Assembly: GCA_012518265.1 (NCBI GenBank)
Contig: JAAYST010000048.1
Coordinates: forward strand, 1 to 64,000
DNA length: 64,000 nt
Source of the DNA: Candidatus Methanofrustulum fimipullorum
Lineage (GTDB): Archaea; Halobacteriota; Methanosarcinia; Methanosarcinales; Methanosarcinaceae
Direction: 5' to 3'
Shown: positions 21,162-33,826 of the stretch, in pieces
Position numbering within the stretch: the first letter of the stretch is position 1
Layout of the letters: each line of letters begins with the position of its first letter
Notes under the pieces: generated by a model
What the model was told of the DNA's origin: nothing
The model's database searches: none
Seen by the model: the letters and a program-made list of their open reading frames with translations, nothing else
Translations under genes and position numbers: made by a program

Positions 21162-24038
21162 TTATTCATTTGAAATTTCCTTTATTTCCGATAAAAATAA
21201 AAGAGCATCAACCGGCGTCATATTGTTAATGTCGGCATTATCGATTTTATCTTTAAGTTTTTTATAATTTTCATATTCTTTAGATTCTTCGAATTTTGAA
21301 CTGTCTTCTTTTATCATATATTGCGGGTCGGATTCGGGGTCGTAAAACATAAGCTGCGTGTAGCGAACGCCTGTTCGTTTTTTGGAACGTTTTGGATTTT
21401 CATTTTCAATCATGCTTTCCGACTCGATTTCGTCTAAAATCTTCTTTGCGCGACTGATTACCTCGTCAGGAACACCTGCTATTTTTGCAACATGAATTCC
21501 GTAACTTTTGTCCGTTGCGCCCGGAACGATTTTCCGAAGGAAAATCAAATCCTGACCGCTTTCCCGAACTGCTATGTGATAGTTTTTTAGACGAGGAAGT
21601 TTATTTTCAAGAATTGTAAGCTGATGATAGTGGGTTGCAAAAAGTGTTCTGACTCCGGGCGACGGAGATGATTTAGACGACGGAACCGACGTAGACGATG
21701 TACCCGGCGTAGACGATTTAGACGGCGTACTCGATGTAGACAATGTAATTGGCGTAGACGATTTAGTCGGCGTAACCGATGTGCCCGACTTTCCTTTGTC
21801 GTGGATATATTCAATTGACGCTTTTGCGATGCTGTATCCGTCATAAGTACTTGTTCCGCGGCCGATTTCATCTAAAAGAATAAGGCTTTTCGGAGTTGAA
21901 TTGTTTAAAATGTTTGCAAGTTCTATCATTTCGACCATAAAGGTACTTCTTCCGGCCGTTAAGTCGTCGTATGCGCCAATTCTTGTAAAAATTCTGTCTA
22001 CGATTCCGATTTTTGCATAAGATGCAGGAACGAAGCTTCCGACTTGAGCCATGATTACGATCATTGCAATTTGGCGCATGTACGTTGATTTTCCGGCCAT
22101 ATTCGGGCCCGTTATTAAGAGAATTTGGTTTTCGATACAGTCCATTTCAGTATCGTTTGGAACAAAGGTTCCTCTCAAAGCCGTTTCCACAATCGGGTGG
22201 CGACCGTTTCTAATTAAAATTTCGGTCGAGTCGGAAATTTCAGGGCAAACGTAATTGTTTTCGGAAGCCGCAATCGAAAATCCGACTATTACGTCAAGCG
22301 CGCCTAAAAGAGATGAAATATTTCTTATTTCGTCTGTAAATTCGCAAACTTTTTGAGTAATTTGTATAAAAAGTTCATATTCAAGTTCAACGAGCTTCTC
22401 GTCGGCAGATAAAATTAAATCTTCCTGCTCTTTAAGTTCAGGCGTAAAAAAACGTTCGGCGTTTGCCATAGTTTGTTTTCTAATATAATTTTCCGGAACC
22501 TGATTTATGTTTGCTTTTGTCACTTCTATGAAATATCCGAAAACTTTATTGAAACCGACTTTAAGAGATTTAATTCCAGTTCGTTTGCGTTCTTTTTCCT
22601 GAAAAGCCGCTATTCTGTTTTTACTGTCTTTTGAAATACTTTTATACTCGTCAACTTCAAAATTAAATCCTTTTTTAATCATTCCGCCCTCACGAACGCT
22701 TACAGGCGGGTCGTCAACAATTGAATTTGAAATGAGATTTACCAAATCTTCCGTAAAATTGTAATCACTAAGTTTGTTTATTATATTTGACAAAAATTTA
22801 GGAATTTCTTCATCGTCATAATCCGACAAAGCCGATATTATATCGGGAATTTTCATCAAAGAATTTTTAAGAGAAATTAAATCTCTTGCATTTGAAGTTC
22901 CGTAAACGGCACGAACAATAAGACGCTCAATATCGTTTATATCTGAAAGAGCATTCAAAATATCGTACTCCGGCAATGAATTGTTTTTGAGGAATTCAAC
23001 CGCTTTAAGCCTGTTTTCAATTTCCGTTTTATCAATAAGCGGCCTTAGAATCCACGATTTTAAAGTTCGTTTTCCCATTGCCGTTTTTGTAAAGTCGAGA
23101 ACATTATACAAAGAAAAGTTTGTCTTTTCATCGTGTACGTTTTTTAAAACTTCCAAATTCCTAAGCGTAATCGAATCCAAAACCATGTAATCAGCAGACG
23201 AGTAGCACCTTACCGTTTTTATATGATTTAATTCTCTCATTTGAGTTTCAAAGGCGTAATTAAGTGCTTCCCCGCACGATATTATTTCGGCCTTTCCTGA
23301 AAAACCGAAACCGTCAAGAGTTTCCACTCCAAACTGTTCCGTTAATGTTTTTTTTGCAGAATCCAAATCTGACGAGCCGTTTCCGAAATCTCTAAATTCA
23401 ATTTTAATGTCGAGCTCTTTTAGTCTGTCGATAAGAACTGTCAAATTTTCCAAAGAAGATTGAACGATACACTCCGACGGCTGAATTCCGGCCGCTTCGC
23501 TTATCACTCTTTCAAAAGGAGTTGAGTCTTCAAATTGGCAAGTTGAAAAATCGCCTGTCGATATATCCAAAAACGCCAATCCGAAAGAATAAACATCGTC
23601 CGGGTCAATCTTCGTTTTGTCTTTTGATTTTGAAATTGAACCCGAAATTACCATTAAATAATTATTTGAAGCATCCGTCAAAATAGACGTATCGATTGCC
23701 GTTCCCGGAGTAATGATTCGCACAACGCCGCGCTTAACAACGCCTTTTGCCTGTTTTGGGTCTTCGAGCTGTTCGCAAATTGCAACTTTATATCCTTTTT
23801 TAATCAATCTCGGAAGATACGTATCGATTGAATGGTAAGGAATTCCTGCAAGCGGCATTGCCGACCCGTCTTTTGAGCGACCTCTTGTAGTAAGCGTAAT
23901 GTCAAGCTCTTCCGAAACCAACTTTGCATCCTCGCCGAAAAACTCGTAAAAATCACCCATCCTGAAAAAAATAAGAGCATCAGGATATTGATTTTTTGTT
24001 TCATAATACTGGCGCATTGCGGGTGTAAGATTTTTCAT
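21162..24038 (-). CDS. mutS: DNA mismatch repair protein MutS with Ser/Thr/Pro insertion
   Basis: This is a full MutS1 of 958 residues. The mismatch-binding Phe and Glu lie in RMGDFYEFF near residue 26, and the Walker A motif is GPNMAGKST near 642. Walker B is in ILLDEIGRGTSTYDG. Between YIHDKG (about 748) and TLFATHYHQL (about 796), bacterial and archaeal MutS proteins have only a few residues. Here about 45 residues of Ser/Thr/Pro repeats are inserted, encoded by a degenerate GACGATTTAGACGG-type repeat (21655-21790). All catalytic motifs are intact and the frame is open. No mutL gene is adjacent. The ATG at 24038 has a TATA box about 40-50 bases upstream. Confidence 0.95.
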   Translation of the reverse strand: MKNLTPAMRQYYETKNQYPDALIFFRMGDFYEFFGEDAKLVSEELDITLTTRGRSKDGSAMPLAGIPYHSIDTYLPRLIKKGYKVAICEQLEDPKQAKGVVKRGVVRIITPGTAIDTSILTDASNNYLMVISGSISKSKDKTKIDPDDVYSFGLAFLDISTGDFSTCQFEDSTPFERVISEAAGIQPSECIVQSSLENLTVLIDRLKELDIKIEFRDFGNGSSDLDSAKKTLTEQFGVETLDGFGFSGKAEIISCGEALNYAFETQMRELNHIKTVRCYSSADYMVLDSITLRNLEVLKNVHDEKTNFSLYNVLDFTKTAMGKRTLKSWILRPLIDKTEIENRLKAVEFLKNNSLPEYDILNALSDINDIERLIVRAVYGTSNARDLISLKNSLMKIPDIISALSDYDDEEIPKFLSNIINKLSDYNFTEDLVNLISNSIVDDPPVSVREGGMIKKGFNFEVDEYKSISKDSKNRIAAFQEKERKRTGIKSLKVGFNKVFGYFIEVTKANINQVPENYIRKQTMANAERFFTPELKEQEDLILSADEKLVELEYELFIQITQKVCEFTDEIRNISSLLGALDVIVGFSIAASENNYVCPEISDSTEILIRNGRHPIVETALRGTFVPNDTEMDCIENQILLITGPNMAGKSTYMRQIAMIVIMAQVGSFVPASYAKIGIVDRIFTRIGAYDDLTAGRSTFMVEMIELANILNNSTPKSLILLDEIGRGTSTYDGYSIAKASIEYIHDKGKSGTSVTPTKSSTPITLSTSSTPSKSSTPGTSSTSVPSSKSSPSPGVRTLFATHYHQLTILENKLPRLKNYHIAVRESGQDLIFLRKIVPGATDKSYGIHVAKIAGVPDEVISRAKKILDEIESESMIENENPKRSKKRTGVRYTQLMFYDPESDPQYMIKEDSSKFEESKEYENYKKLKDKIDNADINNMTPVDALLFLSEIKEISNE

Positions 24039-24439: not shown

Positions 24440-24628
24440 ATGAGATACATGTGTCCAAAATGTAACGGAACCGATCTTTACATTGAAATTGGCGGAATTA
24501 TCGGAGCCGTTTATCATTGTAAAAATTGTGATTATATAGGTTCATTTATAATTGAAGCGGAAGAAGATATGATTAAAAAATTGAAAGAAAAAAATGAATT
24601 GGGATATGAAAGTAAAAATGATTCTTGA
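24440..24628 (+). CDS. Small zinc-ribbon protein
   Basis: This 62-residue protein starts at ATG 24440 after AAGGTG. Two CxxC pairs (CPKCNG near 5 and CKNCDY near 32) make a rubredoxin-like zinc ribbon, followed by an acidic and Lys-rich helix. Many archaeal genomes carry such small proteins of unknown role. It lies 183 bp upstream of the AtwA operon on the same strand; cotranscription is possible but a separate promoter array intervenes. Confidence 0.7.
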   Translation: MRYMCPKCNGTDLYIEIGGIIGAVYHCKNCDYIGSFIIEAEEDMIKKLKEKNELGYESKNDS

Positions 24629-24811: not shown

Positions 24812-26503
24812 ATGGGGTTACTTGTAGAAGTAAAGAATCTTTCTGTTGATTTTGACGGAAAGCTCGTGTTGGATGACATCAGTTTTGACATTGAGGAAGG
24901 AGAAGTTATAGGAATTCTCGGAAAAAGCGGTGCCGGGAAAACTGTATTAATGCATATTTTAAGGGGAACCGAAAGAATCGGAAATGTCAACGGGTCTGTG
25001 ATATATCACGTTGCTATGTGCGAAAAATGTGATTATGTCGATGTTCCGAGTAAGGTCGGAAGCAAATGTAAATGCGGCGGAAAAATGGAGCCGCTTAGCG
25101 TAGATTTTGCAAAAGTCGGGTTGTTTGACGAAAAAAGAAAAGCGGTTACAAAACGCGTTTCTATAATGATTCAAAGAACTTTTGCGCTTTACGGTGACGA
25201 CAGTGTTTTGACAAACATATTAAATTCGTTAAGCGATGTCGATTACAAAGGCGGAAACGATATAGAAATTGCTGTTAAAATACTCGACGAAGTAAATATG
25301 ACTCACAGAACAATGCACATTGCTCGTGATTTGTCGGGCGGTGAAAAACAAAGAGTAGTACTTGCAAGACAGCTTGTCAGAAATCCGTTTTTATTGCTGG
25401 CGGACGAACCGACAGGAACGCTTGACCAAATTAATGCCGACATTGTGCATAATGTAATTATGGAATCGGTCAAAAGCCATAAAATGGCAATGGTTATTAC
25501 TTCTCACTGGCCTGACGTTATCGCAAAAATGTCGAATAAAGCAATACTTTTAGATGAAGGAAAAATATTGGACATAGGCGACCCTGATACGATTGTCAAA
25601 AAGTTTTTAGAAGAAAGCGATACAACATTTGTTGAAAAGCCGGAAAGTTTCGGTGAAGACATAATAAGGGTCAAAGATTTGACAAAACGCTTTGTTTCAG
25701 TAGAAAGAGGAGTCGTTCGTGCAGTTGACGGAATTACATTTGATGTAAAAGAAAGAGAGATTTTCGGACTTGTAGGACCGAGCGGTTCCGGAAAAACCAC
25801 GACATCTGAAATATTAATGGGAGTTATGCCGCCCACAAGCGGGGAAGTTGAAGTCCGAGTCGGTGACGAATGGATTGATATGAAAAAGCCTGGATATATG
25901 AATAAAGGAAGAGCTACCAAATATATGGGAATACTGCACCAAGAATACGGACTTTACCCTCACAGTAGGATTATTGAAAATTTAACAGAGTCGATAAGTC
26001 TTGATTTGCCTTACGAACTCGGAATTAGAAAAGCGATTAATACGCTAAAAGTTGCCGGATTTTCGGAAAGTAAAGCAAAATCCATTTTGAACAAAAATAC
26101 TTATGAATTGAGTGAGGGGGAACGACATCGTGTCGCCTTGGCTCAAGTTTTGATGAAAGAGCCGAAAATAGTAATTATGGACGAGCCGACCGGAACAATG
26201 GATCCGATAACATGCCATTCCGTTACAAATTCAATATTAAATGCGAGAAACGAACTTGGTGAAACGTTTATAATAGTTTCACACGACATGGATTTTGTAA
26301 CTAATATTTGTGACCGTGTTGCGTTGATGTCGAAAGGAAAAATTGTCAAAATCGGAACTCCGGAAGAAGTAGTATCTGAGCCGATGGACAGAGAACTTGC
26401 TTCATATGACGACGGAAGGGCAATAAAACTTGATGCGGAACAAATACCGGATACTTCAAACGTTGACGGAGAAATCAAAAACGACGATATGACCTGTACG
26501 TGA
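24812..26503 (+). CDS. atwA: Methyl-coenzyme M reductase activation component A2
   Basis: AtwA is the twin-ABC ATPase that drives reductive activation of the nickel cofactor F430 of methyl-coenzyme M reductase. The 563-residue protein has NBD1 with Walker A GKSGAGKT near residue 37 and signature LSGGEKQR, and NBD2 with GPSGSGKTT near 322 and signature [11 protein letters not shown]1 holds a Cys-rich insert, CEKCDYV followed by CKCGG (about residues 68-90), that looks like a zinc site. The start ATG follows AGGTG. It opens a same-strand run of six methanogenesis-marker genes. Confidence 0.95.
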
Positions 26504-26564
26504 AAATTAAGCGAAAAATCAAGACCGAATAAGTTCATCAAGCAGTAAAACTCAGGTAATTTAA

Positions 26565-28115
26565 ATGACGAAAAAAATTGAAGTTGTGACAGACGGGCAA
26601 ATTCTCTCGATGCCTGTCGGATCGACTATAGAAGATGCTATAAAATCTGTCGACACGCCGTATTCAAAAGGTGCTGTTGTATGTATTATGAAAAAGCAGG
26701 AAAAGAAAGACGAAGAAATGTCAAAAGAATTCGTGATTGAAACGACCGAAGGCATACTTGTAATGGAATTGAATGACTTTGACAGCCCGTCGTCCCTTTT
26801 TTGGCTTGAAAACTATCAAAACTTTGAAAATTTGCAAATAAGATGGCAAAGTAACGATGCCGCCGCATTCGGTCCGTTTAAAACGGAAATTGAACCGGTA
26901 AGAGGAATGAAAAAATATAACAAATACGACATCGTGCTCGGTGCAGGCGGATTTCAAAGCGAAAACACACATATTATAATATGCAGAAAAGACCAGTATG
27001 CCGAATACGGAGCACCGAAAGAAGGAAGTTTTGCGTTTTTAACCGGCGGCAGAACGAATTTACAAAAAATAAACGATGATACGAAAATATTGAGCATTAC
27101 AAGAACTGCTGAAGAAGAAGAAATGGGAAAAGGCATATGTACAAACGATTTGTCAACCGAACTTGAAGACGGAGACAAATTGATAACTTATACCGAAGTT
27201 GAGCTTGCCCTTGATTCTCCGCACGGTGCCGAAATGTTTTATGCTCTCGTTCGAAACGGAACTTTCAATGTTGATTTTAAAACGCATACATTTTGTTCGG
27301 ACAACACGCTAATCGGAGAACCGTGCGAATATGAAAATTTCGAGCCGAGAAAAAAAGGATCGGTTTGTATAAGATCTTCCGGTGAAGGACGCTCTAAAGT
27401 TTATATAATGTGTAGCGACAGGCCTTCAAGTCTTGTCCATTCCGTCATAGGAAATATTACAAAAGGGGTTGAGTTGCCGATATTTGCGGAAAAGAAACAA
27501 AAATTTACTGTTGAAACGATACCGCCGCAAATTATGCTTCAGGGAAGAACGTTACAGGAATCAACACCGCTTTTAAAAGAGCTTGGAATTGATTTTGAAG
27601 TAATCGGATATGAAGGGGAAGACAATATTATAGTAAAACAGGACCCGTTAACCACGATTGAAATTTTGGGAAAAGGAGCCGTATCGGTAACAACTGTTCC
27701 GAAATCGAATTTAATAGAAATGGAATTTTATTACGACAAAGCTCCTAAAAGTGTTGAATTTTTCAGACACGCTATTGAATTGAAAACTCATCCGATAGGA
27801 ATTTTGCCTGTTTCAATGGTGTATGATACGACATATATTTTCAAAGCTGAAAAAGAAGCGGAAAGGTATAAGGAAATTTTGCCGGAAAATACGCCGGACG
27901 ACCTTGTTTTGGCCGGAGAAGTCGGAATTACGAATCAGTCGGCAAAAAGAATGGGCTACATCGGTGTCAGGTTAAATGATGAAGATTTGTTCGGGCCTAC
28001 AGGAGAGAGAATGAGCGCAACGAATATAATCGGAAAAATACGAGATCCCGAAAAGCTTCTAAATATCAAAGAAGGGGATATTGTATACATTCAGGAAGTT
28101 TTCCCGGAAAAGTAA
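26565..28115 (+). CDS. mmp3: Methanogenesis marker protein 3 (UPF0288)
   Basis: Mmp3 is found only in methanogens and relatives and has been reported as a component of the MCR activation complex with AtwA, Mmp7, Mmp17 and McrC. The 516-residue protein matches the family. It has an N-terminal beta-grasp-like start (GQILSMPVGSTIEDAI), and a C-terminal part with cyclophilin-like features, including EFFRHAIELKTHPIGILP-like sequence near 400. Cysteines at ICR, GICTND, TFCSD, GEPCEYE, SVCIRSS and IMCSD are candidates for cluster ligands. It starts 61 bases after atwA. Confidence 0.9.
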   Translation: MTKKIEVVTDGQILSMPVGSTIEDAIKSVDTPYSKGAVVCIMKKQEKKDEEMSKEFVIETTEGILVMELNDFDSPSSLFWLENYQNFENLQIRWQSNDAAAFGPFKTEIEPVRGMKKYNKYDIVLGAGGFQSENTHIIICRKDQYAEYGAPKEGSFAFLTGGRTNLQKINDDTKILSITRTAEEEEMGKGICTNDLSTELEDGDKLITYTEVELALDSPHGAEMFYALVRNGTFNVDFKTHTFCSDNTLIGEPCEYENFEPRKKGSVCIRSSGEGRSKVYIMCSDRPSSLVHSVIGNITKGVELPIFAEKKQKFTVETIPPQIMLQGRTLQESTPLLKELGIDFEVIGYEGEDNIIVKQDPLTTIEILGKGAVSVTTVPKSNLIEMEFYYDKAPKSVEFFRHAIELKTHPIGILPVSMVYDTTYIFKAEKEAERYKEILPENTPDDLVLAGEVGITNQSAKRMGYIGVRLNDEDLFGPTGERMSATNIIGKIRDPEKLLNIKEGDIVYIQEVFPEK

Positions 28116-28187
28116 ACGGATAAGTATCTGTTAAGCGAACGGGTAAGTAAATTTTCAAATAAAAACTATTAATACGGAGAAATGAAA

Positions 28188-28658
28188 ATGACATCTGAAG
28201 TACAAACAAATGTGAAAGATAAAACAGACACAAGCGATACATATACAAAAATTGTTGCCGTAAGCTCGAAAACCGTTATGCCGGGTGATGCCGCAATGGC
28301 CGCATATGCGGCAGGATATCCTGTCAAGATCAAAGAGACGTGCTACGGGCTTGTGATTTCAGGTGATAAAGACGATGTTGACAATGTTGCCGAAGCTGTC
28401 AGAAATCTCGATAAAAATCACATTTTTATAAAAGACAGAGGGTTTCCGGTCGGTGACAAAAGAAGATGCAGAGCGGACAGAAAAGGCGGACAAAGACCGG
28501 GATTTTATACTCTTTCTGAAGAAATTGGAAAGTTCGGTGTTGTCGGAGATGCGCTTGACATATATTACTCGGATTCGCCTCGCATAAAAGCAAAATGGCC
28601 GGAAAGAGTAGATCCTTCTAAAATTGAAAAGTTGATTAAAAAATTTGATGAAGAATAA
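28188..28658 (+). CDS. mmp6: Methanogenesis marker protein 6
   Basis: This 156-residue protein starts at ATG 28188, 8 bases after GGAG; an ATG six bases upstream has too little spacing. It matches the Mmp6 family, including GDAAMAAYAAGYPVKIKETC and DRGFPVGDKRRCRADRKGG-type sequence. Its biochemical role is unknown, but the gene is restricted to methanogens and always found with MCR-related genes, which suggests a role in MCR maturation or activation. It follows mmp3 by about 70 bases. Confidence 0.88.
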   Translation: MTSEVQTNVKDKTDTSDTYTKIVAVSSKTVMPGDAAMAAYAAGYPVKIKETCYGLVISGDKDDVDNVAEAVRNLDKNHIFIKDRGFPVGDKRRCRADRKGGQRPGFYTLSEEIGKFGVVGDALDIYYSDSPRIKAKWPERVDPSKIEKLIKKFDEE

Positions 28659-28743
28659 GTTCAATTGAAGAATTTTATAAGAATAAGTTTATTGAAGAAT
28701 TTGATTTATTATTTATTTTTATTTTTTTACAGGAGTTTAAAAA

Positions 28744-29190
28744 ATGGTAAAGGTTTTTATTTATCCGACAAACAGTTTCATTTTATCCGACCTTGTAATG
28801 CGTGCAGGTCATGAACCGCTTGTCGTGATGAATCAGGTCAGGGAAAAAGTTACTACGCTGGGAGTTGATTCACCGCCAATGAACATAACACCGGAAGACC
28901 CGAAAACCGGGTTGAAATATGCGGCTATTGAAGTTCCGGCGGGAGTTAGGGGGCGAATGGCATTAAACGGCCCGTTGACCGAACAGGCGGAGATTGCAAT
29001 TATTGTAGAGGGGGCACCTGCCGATTTTGGATGTTCGGGATGTAACAGAACTAACGAATTGACTAAGTTTCTCGTCAGAGACAGACTCGACAGAAGTAAA
29101 ATTTTGGAAATAAAATATCCGGAATCCGATGAGCAAATACATGAGTTTGTTTACAAAATTCTTGATTTTCTTAATACTTTTAATGATTGA
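28744..29190 (+). CDS. mmp5: Methanogenesis marker protein 5
   Basis: This 148-residue protein begins VKVFIYPTNSFILSDLV and matches the Mmp5 family. A CSGC motif (about residues 98-101) is followed by NRTNELTKF and could bind a metal or iron-sulfur cluster. The start ATG has a clear AGGAG. The stop is followed by the ribosome-binding site of mmp15. The function is unknown; context points to MCR activation. Confidence 0.88.
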   Translation: MVKVFIYPTNSFILSDLVMRAGHEPLVVMNQVREKVTTLGVDSPPMNITPEDPKTGLKYAAIEVPAGVRGRMALNGPLTEQAEIAIIVEGAPADFGCSGCNRTNELTKFLVRDRLDRSKILEIKYPESDEQIHEFVYKILDFLNTFND

Positions 29191-29208
29191 GTGAGGAGTT
29201 GGGTTTTA

Positions 29209-30456
29209 ATGAAAGAAGACAAGGTAAAAATTGCGTTGGTTTCTTGCGGAACCGAATACGGCGGAGTTCAGGCCGAATTTGAAGAAGCGGCAGAAAAAGT
29301 AAATGCCGAATTTATTTACCCGGAAATCGATATAAAAAGATTGGATACAATCGGAAAAGATTTCGGAATAGATGCCGCAAGCGGGGATCTTAGACTTATG
29401 ATGGCAAGAGCTGAAGCCGTTGTAAAAGGACAAACGTTAGCCGACGGTGTGTTTGTCACGACGTGTTTCAGATGCGCCGAAGCCGCAATTGTTAGAAATG
29501 AAGTTAGAAGATACATCCACAGAAACTCTAAAATTCCTGTAATAAGCTATTCATTTACGGAACAAACGAATGCAGCAACTCTTTTTACAAGATTTGAAGC
29601 ACTGACAACTATTGCAAAGAGAAGACATCTTCTTGCAAGAGAAATTCAAACCGGAATTACGGCAGGAATAGATTCGGGATCCACAACAACAAAAGCAGTA
29701 ATTATGAAAGATAATGAAATTATAGGACTTGGGTGGGGCCCTACAAATCAGGTTTTGGAAAGTGCGGAATCCGTATACCAAGAAGCGCTCGACATGGCGG
29801 GACTTAAAAAAGAAGATATTCAGGCTCTTGGAACGACCGGGTACGGCAGATATTTAATCGGAGAACGCATGAACGCCGATTTGGTTCAGGAAGAAATTAC
29901 CGTAAACTCAAAAGGTGCCGTTTATTTGGCCGGAAAACAAAGAGGACCTGCAACCGTAATAGATATCGGAGGAATGGACAACAAAGCGATTTCTATAGAA
30001 GACGGAATTCCCGGTATGTTTACGATGGGAGGAATTTGTGCCGGTGCGTCAGGCCGTTTCTTTGAAACTGTTGCAAAGAGACTAAATGTAGATATAACGG
30101 AGTTGGGAGACCTGGCAGTTAAGGGTGACCAAAGCAAAGTCGATATGAACAGTTACTGTATCGTTTTCGGAACTCAGTCGTTAGTAAATTCGCTCTCGCA
30201 AGGTGCGTTGCCGAAAGACGTAGCCGCTGCAGCCTGCCGAAGTGTTGTTGAACAGATTTATCAGCAGCAATTGCAAGAAGTAGATGTAAGAGAGCCGGTA
30301 ATTTTAGTTGGCGGATCGTCTCTTATTAAAGGAGTTCCGAAGGAACTTGGTGAACTTTTAAACGTAGAAGTAATCGTTCCCGACAAGTCTCAATATATCG
30401 GAGCTGTCGGTGCCGCCCTTCTTGCATCAGGATTCATAGACGAACAAAACGATTAA
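29209..30456 (+). CDS. mmp15: Methanogenesis marker protein 15 (activase-like ATPase)
   Basis: This is an ASKHA-fold ATPase of the BcrA/BadF/HgdC activator family. I start it at ATG 29209, 10 bases after GAGGAG (415 residues). An N-terminal domain of about 140 residues holds CGTEYGG and TTCFRCAEA. The ATPase part has phosphate-binding motif AGIDSGSTTTKAV near 155, DIGGMDNKAI near 260, and GGICAGASGRFFE near 280, where the Cys ligates a [4Fe-4S] cluster in related activators. Such activators inject low-potential electrons at the cost of ATP, which is what MCR activation needs; that link is inference. Confidence 0.9.
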   Translation: MKEDKVKIALVSCGTEYGGVQAEFEEAAEKVNAEFIYPEIDIKRLDTIGKDFGIDAASGDLRLMMARAEAVVKGQTLADGVFVTTCFRCAEAAIVRNEVRRYIHRNSKIPVISYSFTEQTNAATLFTRFEALTTIAKRRHLLAREIQTGITAGIDSGSTTTKAVIMKDNEIIGLGWGPTNQVLESAESVYQEALDMAGLKKEDIQALGTTGYGRYLIGERMNADLVQEEITVNSKGAVYLAGKQRGPATVIDIGGMDNKAISIEDGIPGMFTMGGICAGASGRFFETVAKRLNVDITELGDLAVKGDQSKVDMNSYCIVFGTQSLVNSLSQGALPKDVAAAACRSVVEQIYQQQLQEVDVREPVILVGGSSLIKGVPKELGELLNVEVIVPDKSQYIGAVGAALLASGFIDEQND

Positions 30457-30481
30457 ACATTTTTAATTAGAGGAAATGAAT

Positions 30482-31084
30482 ATGGAACCTCTTGAAATAT
30501 TTAAAGTGGACTCACCAATCGATTCGGAAGCCGAAGTATATAAAAAAGTAATTTCTGATATTATTTCAGATTTAAGACTTGCTTCATCTATAGGACGTCT
30601 TCACAGTACGGTTTTGCCGGAAGAGTCGAGATTTGACTTGGTTGCGGTATTAAGAGATATTGAATCTGCAATTGCGGTTGAAGATGTGTGTTCGCTTAAC
30701 TCCGGGTTTGAAAAAGGAAAAGATATAATCAGAATTTCAATTGAAAACGAAAAGTATATGCCGGAATTGACGACGTTTCTTTGGGACACTTACGGAAAAA
30801 TAAACGTTTTGCAAAACGACAGATGGACGATATACGTATTTACGGAAGAACCTGAAGCGGAAATTGAAAAAATTAGAGGAATATTTATTGCCGACCCGGC
30901 AAAATCGCTTCATGCAAATATGGTGGAATTGGCGATTCGTTCCGTTCCCGAAGGGTTTCGTGTAAGATATCACACAATGGACGGAAGGGATTTCTTATTC
31001 GTTGCATCAGAAGATCCGTTGGAACCGGAATGGATTGAAGATGCTGAAATTATGTTAAACAATTTGAAAACAGGAGAAGTTTGA
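30482..31084 (+). CDS. mmp17: Methanogenesis marker protein 17
   Basis: This 200-residue protein starts at ATG 30482 after AGAGGA. An ATG two codons upstream overlaps that site. It matches the Mmp17 family, with segments such as NDRWTIYVFTEEPE and ADPAKSLHANMVELAIR. Mmp17 has been reported as part of the MCR activation complex with Mmp3, Mmp7, AtwA and McrC. Its stop TGA overlaps the start of mmp7, a sign of translational coupling of the two partners. Confidence 0.87.
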   Translation: MEPLEIFKVDSPIDSEAEVYKKVISDIISDLRLASSIGRLHSTVLPEESRFDLVAVLRDIESAIAVEDVCSLNSGFEKGKDIIRISIENEKYMPELTTFLWDTYGKINVLQNDRWTIYVFTEEPEAEIEKIRGIFIADPAKSLHANMVELAIRSVPEGFRVRYHTMDGRDFLFVASEDPLEPEWIEDAEIMLNNLKTGEV

Positions 31085-32022
31085 TGAAAACCGTTTATGA
31101 ACCGTATTTATACAACGGCGGAGTTTACAAACACGGACAAGTTATCGAGCTTATAGAAGACGTAGGCGGATTTATCGTAAACAAGGTCGTAACTGTAGCC
31201 GAAGTCGACATGGATATGATTCTTCCAAGAGAAGAAGCGCCTGTTATTGAAAAATTTGCGGAAACGCTCTTGGGAAAACTTATAAAATCCCCGCTAACGG
31301 GAATTGAAATTGCTGTAGTGTCGCCGACACTTGCTTCTCACCACTTGCCGCACTCGGCTTGCGATATTGCAGAATATTTAAGACACCCGGGAGCAAAAAC
31401 GACGATGATCGGCTTAGCTCGCGGAATGGGAAGAAGAGTTGCACTAAACGACGATTTTGAACGAAGACTTATAAACGAACATGATATTGCCGTATTTGCA
31501 CTCGGTTCGTTTCGAGATTGTCTCATGAACAAAAAGCCGAGGCTTTTTGAAGGAATAGAAATTCCGATAGTAGTAACCGGAGGGCCTGACGACTTAACAG
31601 AAAAAGACATTCCCCGAGCAGACGTTTACATCGGAAATCTTGGAAGATCTTCAAGCCGTTTAAGAAAACCCGGCGACATAAACGCACTTGACGTGATGAA
31701 CGAAAAGGTGAGCGAATTGGCAGACAAAATGCGTGAAGATTTAGCAAAAGATCCTCCCGCTGTCCTTCCGGCAAGAGTTATGAAAGAAATTGAAAACCAA
31801 GTGCCGGAAGTCGCAGAATCGCTTGCACCGTCAGCAATGACTTTGAAATTGACAGGTGTTCGAGTAAAATTGCCGTATGACAAGTATGCGGACAAAATAA
31901 AAGACGTGGAATTCGAAGAAGGCGTTAAATTAACGGATGTCGCCGACATCGTCAAATCGAAGATGAACGACTACATTTTAGTAAATATAAAGCCAAAATC
32001 CGAAATCGGATTTGAGATTTGA
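31084..32022 (+). CDS. mmp7: Methanogenesis marker protein 7
   Basis: This 312-residue protein starts at ATG 31084, which shares its A with the mmp17 stop; AGGAG lies 8 bases upstream. It matches Mmp7, reported in the MCR activation complex. Segments SHHLPHSACDIAEYLR (about 93-108), GLARGMGRRV and SFRDCLMN carry cysteines that could take part in metal-cluster binding. It is the last methanogenesis-marker gene in the run; the SppA-like gene starts 36 bases later. Confidence 0.88.
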   Translation: MKTVYEPYLYNGGVYKHGQVIELIEDVGGFIVNKVVTVAEVDMDMILPREEAPVIEKFAETLLGKLIKSPLTGIEIAVVSPTLASHHLPHSACDIAEYLRHPGAKTTMIGLARGMGRRVALNDDFERRLINEHDIAVFALGSFRDCLMNKKPRLFEGIEIPIVVTGGPDDLTEKDIPRADVYIGNLGRSSSRLRKPGDINALDVMNEKVSELADKMREDLAKDPPAVLPARVMKEIENQVPEVAESLAPSAMTLKLTGVRVKLPYDKYADKIKDVEFEEGVKLTDVADIVKSKMNDYILVNIKPKSEIGFEI

Positions 32023-32058
32023 ATATTTGATTAAATTGATAAAAAGGTGTATAATTCG

Positions 32059-33378
32059 ATGGACATAAAAGAAGGAAAAGAAGAAGAAAATAAAGATATG
32101 GAAGATCTAAAAAAAGACAGGCTGCCAACAGGCTCAAAATACAGACCGTACTACACATATATGAATGAAAATAAAAACGAATCGGATTCGTTAAAAAAAG
32201 ATAAAAATGTCGATATCGATAAAAAAATTGAAGATATCGTAAATGAAAAAATAAAAGAAGAGAAAATTAGAGAAGATAGAATAAGAGAAGAAATACTAAG
32301 GGAAGAAAGATTAAGAGAAGAAATACGAAAGGAAGAAAAGTTAAGAGAAGAAAGAAGAAAAGAAAGAATCGCATTTGAAAATTCGGAAAAAAGTAAAAGT
32401 GTTAAAAAGCCGAAAAAAAGAAATTGGTTTTCAAGAAATAAAATTTTTATTTTTTTAGGATTCATTTTATTATTAGCAGTAGTTTTGTTTGCTGCCGCTT
32501 TGTTCAGTCCTTCGGATTATTTGCCCGGAACGGGACCTAAAATTGCCGTTTTAAACATTCACGGAACGATGATTACAGGTGAAGGTGCATACGGTTTCGG
32601 ATATACAGGATCTGACACTTTATGTGCTTTAATTAGAAAAGCCGTTGATGAAGAAAAAGTTGACGCAATTGTGTTTAGAATTAACAGTGGCGGCGGAAGC
32701 GGATCTGCGGCCGATGAAATCGTATTTGAAATCAATCGTGCAAAAGAAAAAGGTGTGATAATAATATCCACAATCGGAGACGCCGGAGCTTCTGCAGCAT
32801 ATTGGGTTGCATCTCAAAGCGATTACATTTACGTTACAAACAGCACAATTACAGGTTCAATCGGTGCAATCGGGATGCATGAAGACCATTCAAAAAAACT
32901 TGAAGAAGAAGGCGTAAACGTAACCGTTTTTAAAAGCGGTCCGTTTAAAGATATGGGCTCCCAACACCGACCGTTAACCGATGAAGAAAAAGAATATTGG
33001 CAACAAATCGTAGACGACATGAAAAACAACATGGTAAGAGAAGTTGCAAAAGGCAGAAACCTTGACGAAGGATACATACAAAGCCTTGCCGACGGCCGAA
33101 TAATAACAGGTCAAAAAGCAATAGAACTAAAACTCGTAGACGAAATCGGAAACTTCTATACAGCTTTGGACAAAGCAAAAGAACTCGTCGGAAAAGAAGG
33201 TGAGCCGAATGTTTTATACATGGACAAAGTATCTCTTTCATCACTAATTTTCGGAGCCGAATCAAAAAATAACGAAAACACAAATTTAAACGAAAAAAGT
33301 AACAGCAGCAGTAACGAATCAAATGAATCGGAAATTACCGATATAAAAATTCCGACCGTTTGGATGAAAGCTTTTTAA
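32059..33378 (+). CDS. sppA: SppA-like signal peptide peptidase (S49) with charged N-terminal helix
   Basis: This membrane-bound serine protease degrades cleaved signal peptides. I start it at ATG 32059, 9 bases after AAAGGTG (439 residues). The first 120 residues are almost wholly charged, with a run of alternating EE/RR blocks at about 65-108 (REEILREERLREEIRKEE) that would form a single alpha-helix. A membrane helix follows at about 126-147. The S49 domain has FRINSGGGS, the catalytic Ser in GDAGASAAYW (about 245) and the Lys near 297 in SGPFKDMGS. It ends in a Ser/Asn tail. It sits directly after mmp7 and before a strong terminator. Confidence 0.9.
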   Translation: MDIKEGKEEENKDMEDLKKDRLPTGSKYRPYYTYMNENKNESDSLKKDKNVDIDKKIEDIVNEKIKEEKIREDRIREEILREERLREEIRKEEKLREERRKERIAFENSEKSKSVKKPKKRNWFSRNKIFIFLGFILLLAVVLFAAALFSPSDYLPGTGPKIAVLNIHGTMITGEGAYGFGYTGSDTLCALIRKAVDEEKVDAIVFRINSGGGSGSAADEIVFEINRAKEKGVIIISTIGDAGASAAYWVASQSDYIYVTNSTITGSIGAIGMHEDHSKKLEEEGVNVTVFKSGPFKDMGSQHRPLTDEEKEYWQQIVDDMKNNMVREVAKGRNLDEGYIQSLADGRIITGQKAIELKLVDEIGNFYTALDKAKELVGKEGEPNVLYMDKVSLSSLIFGAESKNNENTNLNEKSNSSSNESNESEITDIKIPTVWMKAF

Positions 33379-33463: not shown

Positions 33464-33510
33464 AAAACCTTAATAAAAGCGACTTTGTCGCTTTTATTAA
33501 GGTTTTTGTT
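33464..33510 (+). terminator. Very strong terminator after the mmp/sppA run
   Basis: A perfect 20-bp stem beginning AAAACCTTAATAAAAGCGAC closes the loop TTT and is followed by T-rich DNA. It marks the end of the sppA transcript and probably of the whole methanogenesis-marker run. Confidence 0.8.
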
Positions 33511-33680
33511 TTTCTTTTTTTTATTTTTTTTACTTTTTTATTTTTTTTATTTTTTATTTCTTTTTTATTTTTTTCCTTCTTTATTTTGAATTATTACTTG
33601 ACGATATTGTCTCGTCGGCAGTTTCGGAATTGGATTCCGTTTCTGCCGAAACCAAGCGACCGTTAGTTTTATTCACAATT

Positions 33681-33816
33681 ATTTTTCAAATTATTCTATT
33701 TATTTTTGCAATTATTCTATTTATTTTTCCAATTATTCTATTTATTTTTCCAATTATTCTATTTATTTTTCCAATTATTACGTTTATTTTTCAAATTATT
33801 ACGTTTATTTTTCTAC
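33681..33816. repeat. 21-bp tandem repeat, six to seven copies
   Basis: Units of the type CCAATTATTCTATTTATTTT recur with slight variation (TTCAAATTATTACG in the last copies). The array reaches to within 10 bases of the herA stop codon. Confidence 0.8.
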
Positions 33817-33826
33817 ATAAATTTCA

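Follow-up and report, generated by a model that had tools for sequence, protein, structure and literature searches.

A conserved methanosarcinal locus for methyl-coenzyme M reductase activation and a candidate electron-supplying module of Mmp15, Mmp5 and Mmp6

The window analysed here, a 64,000-nucleotide stretch, belongs to the genome of a Methanimicrococcus-like member of the Methanosarcinaceae; the closest Mmp15 sequences, at 84% identity, come from Candidatus Methanimicrococcus genomes and one rumen Methanosarcinaceae genome. Seven genes lie on its + strand (24812-32022) in the order atwA-mmp3-mmp6-mmp5-mmp15-mmp17-mmp7, with sppA next and then a hairpin. Gene identities were called by the cut-offs of curated NCBIfam models, and all eight ORFs score above them, in agreement with the strand and identities given in the first-pass annotation. 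The first gene, atwA (24812-26503), encodes component A2, the twin-ABC ATPase of the methyl-coenzyme M reductase (MCR) activation complex (TIGR03269, 826 bits, cut-off 517). Further subunits of the complex are encoded by mmp3 (26565-28115; TIGR03268, 549 bits, cut-off 234), mmp17 (30476-31084; TIGR03291, 166 bits, cut-off 67) and mmp7, whose product is McrC-like (31084-32022; TIGR03274, 432 bits, cut-off 349). Between them lie the genes that we assign to an auxiliary module: mmp6 (DUF2102; 28182-28658; TIGR03272, 135 bits, cut-off 126), mmp5 (DUF2112; 28744-29190; TIGR03271, 205 bits, cut-off 140) and mmp15, which encodes an N-domain fused to an HgdC/BcrA-type activase ATPase (29209-30456; TIGR03286, 705 bits, cut-off 456). 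The S49 signal peptide peptidase gene sppA follows at 32059-33378 (SppA_dom TIGR00706, 186 bits, cut-off 155). The likely start codons differ slightly from those of the raw ORFs for mmp15 (ATG 29209, GTG 29191 being possible too), mmp7 (ATG 31084) and sppA (ATG 32059).

From atwA through sppA the intergenic gaps measure 61, 66, 85, 18, 19, -1 and 36 bases. The earlier description of the operon as compact thus holds best from mmp5 to mmp7. The 85-base gap between mmp6 and mmp5 contains a T-rich tract with a run of seven T (28722-28728, + strand, read directly from the gap sequence). This run is a possible partial transcription stop and, although co-transcription is likely, a single transcript should not be taken for granted. 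The 20-bp-stem terminator noted previously past sppA corresponds to a perfect 20-pair hairpin with a T-rich tail at 33464-33506 (+ strand), a likely terminator. Matches to sigma-70 promoters were set aside, as they are meaningless in an archaeal host. The same genome encodes MCR, McrC, NifB and DUF2098, with McrA, McrC, NifB and DUF2098 on other contigs; mcrC sits outside the cluster in the mcr operon (contig C68), and nifB is likewise found elsewhere (contig C35).

A survey of gene order across relatives, suggested as a check in the first-pass annotation, recovered the complete seven-gene order in 71 of the 80 related loci, which rules out a chance arrangement; most of the remaining loci are interrupted by a contig end, and one (L077) is an extra partial copy. 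In the part of the phylum sample that was compared, families f1, f2, f3, f4, f8, f10, f12, f15 and f21-f23 retain this order, contig breaks aside. The arrangement is that of the standard methanosarcinal locus for MCR reductive activation and has already been described, an equivalent locus being reported in two papers (PMC12176620, PMC4153887). The idea that its genes of unknown role act on behalf of MCR is not new either, since the additional Mmp proteins encoded there have been suggested to be needed for physiological MCR activation (PMC12176620).

The membership of AtwA, Mmp3, Mmp7 and Mmp17 in the activation complex, as proposed at first reading, is borne out by published work (PMC12176620) and by matches to the solved structure (PDB 8s7v/8s7x/9h1l). 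Mmp7, Mmp3, Mmp17 and the host McrC match chains H, J, G and I of the complex, respectively (Mmp3 to 8s7v chain J with E=1e-74, Mmp17 to 8s7v chain G with E=1e-9). When Mmp7 is aligned with 8s7v chain H, its residues H87, C93 and C146, invariant in 88 sequences, fall on the M. maripaludis FeS ligands H84, C90 and C143, which have been named as ligands of the second and third clusters (PMC12176620). In the first ABC half of AtwA, C70, C73 and C86 are invariant, and C88 is present in 96% of the sequences. Tagged McrC did not co-purify with Mmp5, Mmp6 or Mmp15 (PMC12176620, PMC9584954), and the complex purified without them holds its three clusters and activates MCR in vitro (PMC12176620).

The C-domain of Mmp15 scores 230 bits against PF01869 and has the ASKHA ATPase fold of the activase family. 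In the alignment with the A. fermentans activator (1hux, E=4e-31), C277 and C317 of Mmp15 fall on C127 and C166, its known [4Fe-4S] cluster ligands; Mmp15 could also be aligned with 4eht. The two cysteines are invariant in 94 sequences. Structure prediction gave a model (pLDDT 85) that resembles activators and DCCP reductase, with Foldseek hits to 9gai_D (E=4e-21, TMt 0.91), 4ehu, 1hux and the DCCP reductase 7yyl. The assignment of Mmp15 as an HgdC/BcrA-type ATPase with a cluster-binding cysteine is therefore upheld, both cluster cysteines aligning and the fold matching. The preceding N-domain of about 145 residues carries three further invariant cysteines, C13, C86 and C89 (94 sequences, drawn from at least six divergent families). 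A motif had suggested that this domain might be HgdB/dehydratase-like, a candidate that we rejected: neither Pfam and NCBIfam searches with E values up to 10 nor a PDB profile search yielded a credible match, and the domain has no detectable relative. At this locus no partner dehydratase or reductase of the HgdAB/BcrBC family lies beside mmp15, whose neighbours encode Mmp5 and Mmp17, so that Mmp15 may act like an activase yet not be the activator of a dehydratase. Among the papers searched we found none on the function of Mmp15, nor any biochemical or genetic tests of Mmp5, Mmp6 or Mmp15.

Mmp5 and Mmp6 also have paired invariant cysteines, C97-x-x-C100 in Mmp5 (95 sequences) and C54 and C96 in Mmp6 (conservation alignment). 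The Mmp5 model, with a pLDDT of only 70, gave no significant fold match (best E 0.14). Comparison of Mmp5 with the Mmp15 N-domain reached an HHalign probability of 49% over 38 columns around the CxxC, a hint only of kinship; of all other pairings among the operon proteins, only that of the two ABC halves of AtwA showed a relation. In three related MCR-bearing, Archaeoglobi-like genomes, all of one genus (L083-L085), Mmp6 and Mmp5 are encoded by a single ORF (L083 3172-3996) in which both domains and their cysteines are complete. Genes that look by eye like mtrE, mtrD and mtrC come after the operon in L083. A second, stand-alone fused mmp6-mmp5 ORF lies with an mmp15 at L077 882-3187, in a Methanosarcina genome bin that also contains a normal cluster (L014); the N-domain of its Mmp15 contains a 37-residue insert, and a plasmid match to this copy was sought and none found. 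This second cluster may represent a duplicate in decay or contamination of the bin.

The distribution of the three genes ties them to MCR. Among 54 genomes chosen from a phylum sample, the 36 with a McrA match all contain mmp6, and 35 contain mmp5 and mmp15, one being truncated at a contig end; of the 18 genomes with no McrA match, 14 lack every marker and the other four, which are drafts, keep the whole set. The genes track MCR also in genomes with a divergent, alkyl-type McrA, and G014, which has no MCR, lacks them, whereas its MCR-bearing congeners G063, G092 and G127 possess them. Co-occurrence and gene neighbourhood thus both back the link of Mmp5, Mmp6 and Mmp15 to MCR that the first-pass annotation had drawn. 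Copy numbers, in turn, set the three apart from the complex. Three genomes from two families (G007 and G027 of f8, G025 of f16) carry a second set of atwA, mmp3, mmp7, mmp17 and an mcrC-like gene (L104 2895-13625, L105 5947-12456, L106 and L107) with no second mmp5, mmp6 or mmp15; in G007 and G025 mmp5, mmp6 and full-length mmp15 are single, while G027 is broken at that point. The second set in L104 includes an mcrD-like ORF. Conversely, f6 genomes (we infer that f6 is ANME-1-like and f5 Archaeoglobi-like) have two Mmp15 but only one copy each of mmp3, mmp7 and, to the extent that the assemblies show it, mmp17. Both full-length Mmp15 copies in these genomes (L086-L089, L095, L096 and L108) keep all six cysteines, the more divergent one lying beside mmp5; these genomes often have a duplicate AtwA too, arranged in tandem next to mcrC in L108. 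One would not expect stoichiometric partners in a single complex to part in copy number like this, and Mmp5, Mmp6 and Mmp15 look like a separate auxiliary module rather than a fixed part of the activation complex. Where the rest of the operon is scattered, mmp5-mmp15 remain adjacent in 7/7 f6 and 2/2 f16 genomes, and mmp17-mmp7 in 7/7 f6 genomes, one surviving pair for each proposed module; in f24 genomes the pairing of mmp5 and mmp15 is lost, the two lying on different contigs.

Methane biology has yet to settle how F430 reaches the Ni(I) state, at about -650 mV, in the cell. The purified complex shows weak activity with Ti(III) citrate and none with DTT, so that a factor seems to be missing on its donor side (PMC12176620), and an activase-type electron injector would fill this place. 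Our best reading, held tentatively, is that Mmp15, Mmp5 and Mmp6 form an ATP-driven injector of low-potential electrons for the activation complex. AtwA, Mmp3, Mmp7 and Mmp17, together with McrC from the mcr operon, would assemble into the complex that docks onto MCR and passes electrons to F430 through three complex FeS clusters, as shown for M. maripaludis and expected here by homology. Mmp15, whose ATPase identity and cysteines are evident from the alignments, would act like the activators of 2-hydroxyacyl-CoA dehydratases, presumably as an ATPase dimer with a bridging [4Fe-4S] cluster. The dimer would accept its electron from ferredoxin or a similar donor, and ATP hydrolysis would lower the potential of that electron. 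The electron might then cross a cysteine-ligated site of the Mmp15 N-domain, Mmp5 and Mmp6 to reach the outermost cluster at the Mmp7/Mmp17 interface; since the N-domain has no detectable relative, the acceptor site is a guess. The idea that the three proteins provide electrons or metal clusters is plausible and agrees with the data on copy number, gene fusion and cysteines; it does not originate with this genome. We consider it doubtful that a broader claim holds, namely that they are a distinct, evolutionarily separable ATP-driven electron-injection machine, common to parallel complexes, and the missing physiological donor for the formation of Ni(I) in all archaea with MCR or alkyl-CoM reductase.

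The complex might also receive its clusters from Mmp5, Mmp6 and Mmp15 before purification, which makes cluster delivery the main rival to electron injection. In that case Mmp7 and McrC would receive their NifB-made [8Fe-9S-C]-type clusters by delivery or insertion through the three proteins, with the ATPase driving release or insertion. The paired invariant cysteines of Mmp5, Mmp6 and the Mmp15 N-domain would suit a carrier or scaffold, a module that stays single where the core sets are doubled is what an assembly factor would give, the host genome has NifB, and nifB follows the cluster in Methanothermobacter (PMC12176620). In the host, however, nifB is not part of the cluster, and the weak donor side of the purified complex calls for a reductant factor. 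Moreover, Mmp15 retains the full activase cluster site, which to our knowledge has a role in electron transfer in all characterised relatives. We regard cluster delivery as the less likely of the two.

A more remote reading is that the three proteins prepare MCR itself, by handling F430 or nickel or by clearing a heterodisulfide-inhibited state, and are merely co-regulated with the complex. Their strict co-occurrence with MCR, divergent McrA included, would suit any MCR-directed role, but in most families mmp5, mmp6 and mmp15 lie between complex genes and not beside F430 biosynthesis or mcr genes, and the kinship of Mmp15 with activases favours electron transfer; such a role seems to us rather improbable.

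The first-pass annotation had also raised co-expression of sppA. The gene does lie only 36 bases past mmp7, on the same strand and ahead of the only strong hairpin, but it adjoins the cluster in 0/80 related loci. SppA is a membrane protease, whereas the MCR activation complex is cytoplasmic. The gene after mmp7 varies among relatives, and the four Methanimicrococcus-like loci have different downstream genes, so that we rejected sppA as a member of the system: it is probably a chance, unrelated neighbour, and a role in processing or controlling a component of the system is very improbable. Elsewhere in the flanking DNA, a 62-residue four-cysteine zinc-ribbon-like ORF lies immediately upstream of atwA on the same strand (24440-24628, +), with a counterpart beside atwA in 0/80 relatives. 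On the - strand (21162-24038), MutS has a Ser/Thr/Pro-rich low-complexity insert of about 45 residues in its ATPase domain, between IEYIHDKGKS and VRTLFATHYH. AT-rich tandem units (TTTATTTTTCCAATTATTC-like) occupy 33660-33820, between sppA and a HerA-like gene downstream.

The comparison across genomes points to three genes, including a defined ATPase and specific cysteines, as a separable candidate unit for the missing step of a solved complex that still depends on an artificial reductant. The C-domain of Mmp15 has the fold and both cluster cysteines in common with the HgdC/HadI/BcrAD-type activators of 2-hydroxyacyl-CoA dehydratases and benzoyl-CoA reductases and with DCCP reductase, and differs from them by its extra N-domain with three invariant cysteines. 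The activation-complex structure resembles the host system in its matching chains and in the conserved Mmp7 ligands, and differs in containing no Mmp5, Mmp6 or Mmp15. Among loci, the equivalent one in Methanosarcina, of the same family as the host, likewise includes the A2 gene (PMC12176620), and 71 of the 80 relatives surveyed have the exact order of the host. In Methanothermobacter marburgensis the Mmp genes are also clustered (MTBMA_c04360-c04410), but A2 is missing from the locus and nifB comes after it (Ramirez-Amador et al. 2025, PMC12176620), where sppA stands here. The 16-kb MCR region of the Methanomassiliicoccales (Borrel et al. 2014, PMC4153887) apparently holds the same string, its consecutive gene numbers listing an McrC-like protein (Mmp7), a conserved protein, an activase (Mmp15), two conserved proteins, a PPIase-related protein (Mmp3) and AtwA, an order consistent with that of the host when the unnamed proteins are matched by position; there mcrC lies within the string and the mcr operon close by, whereas here mcr is on another contig.
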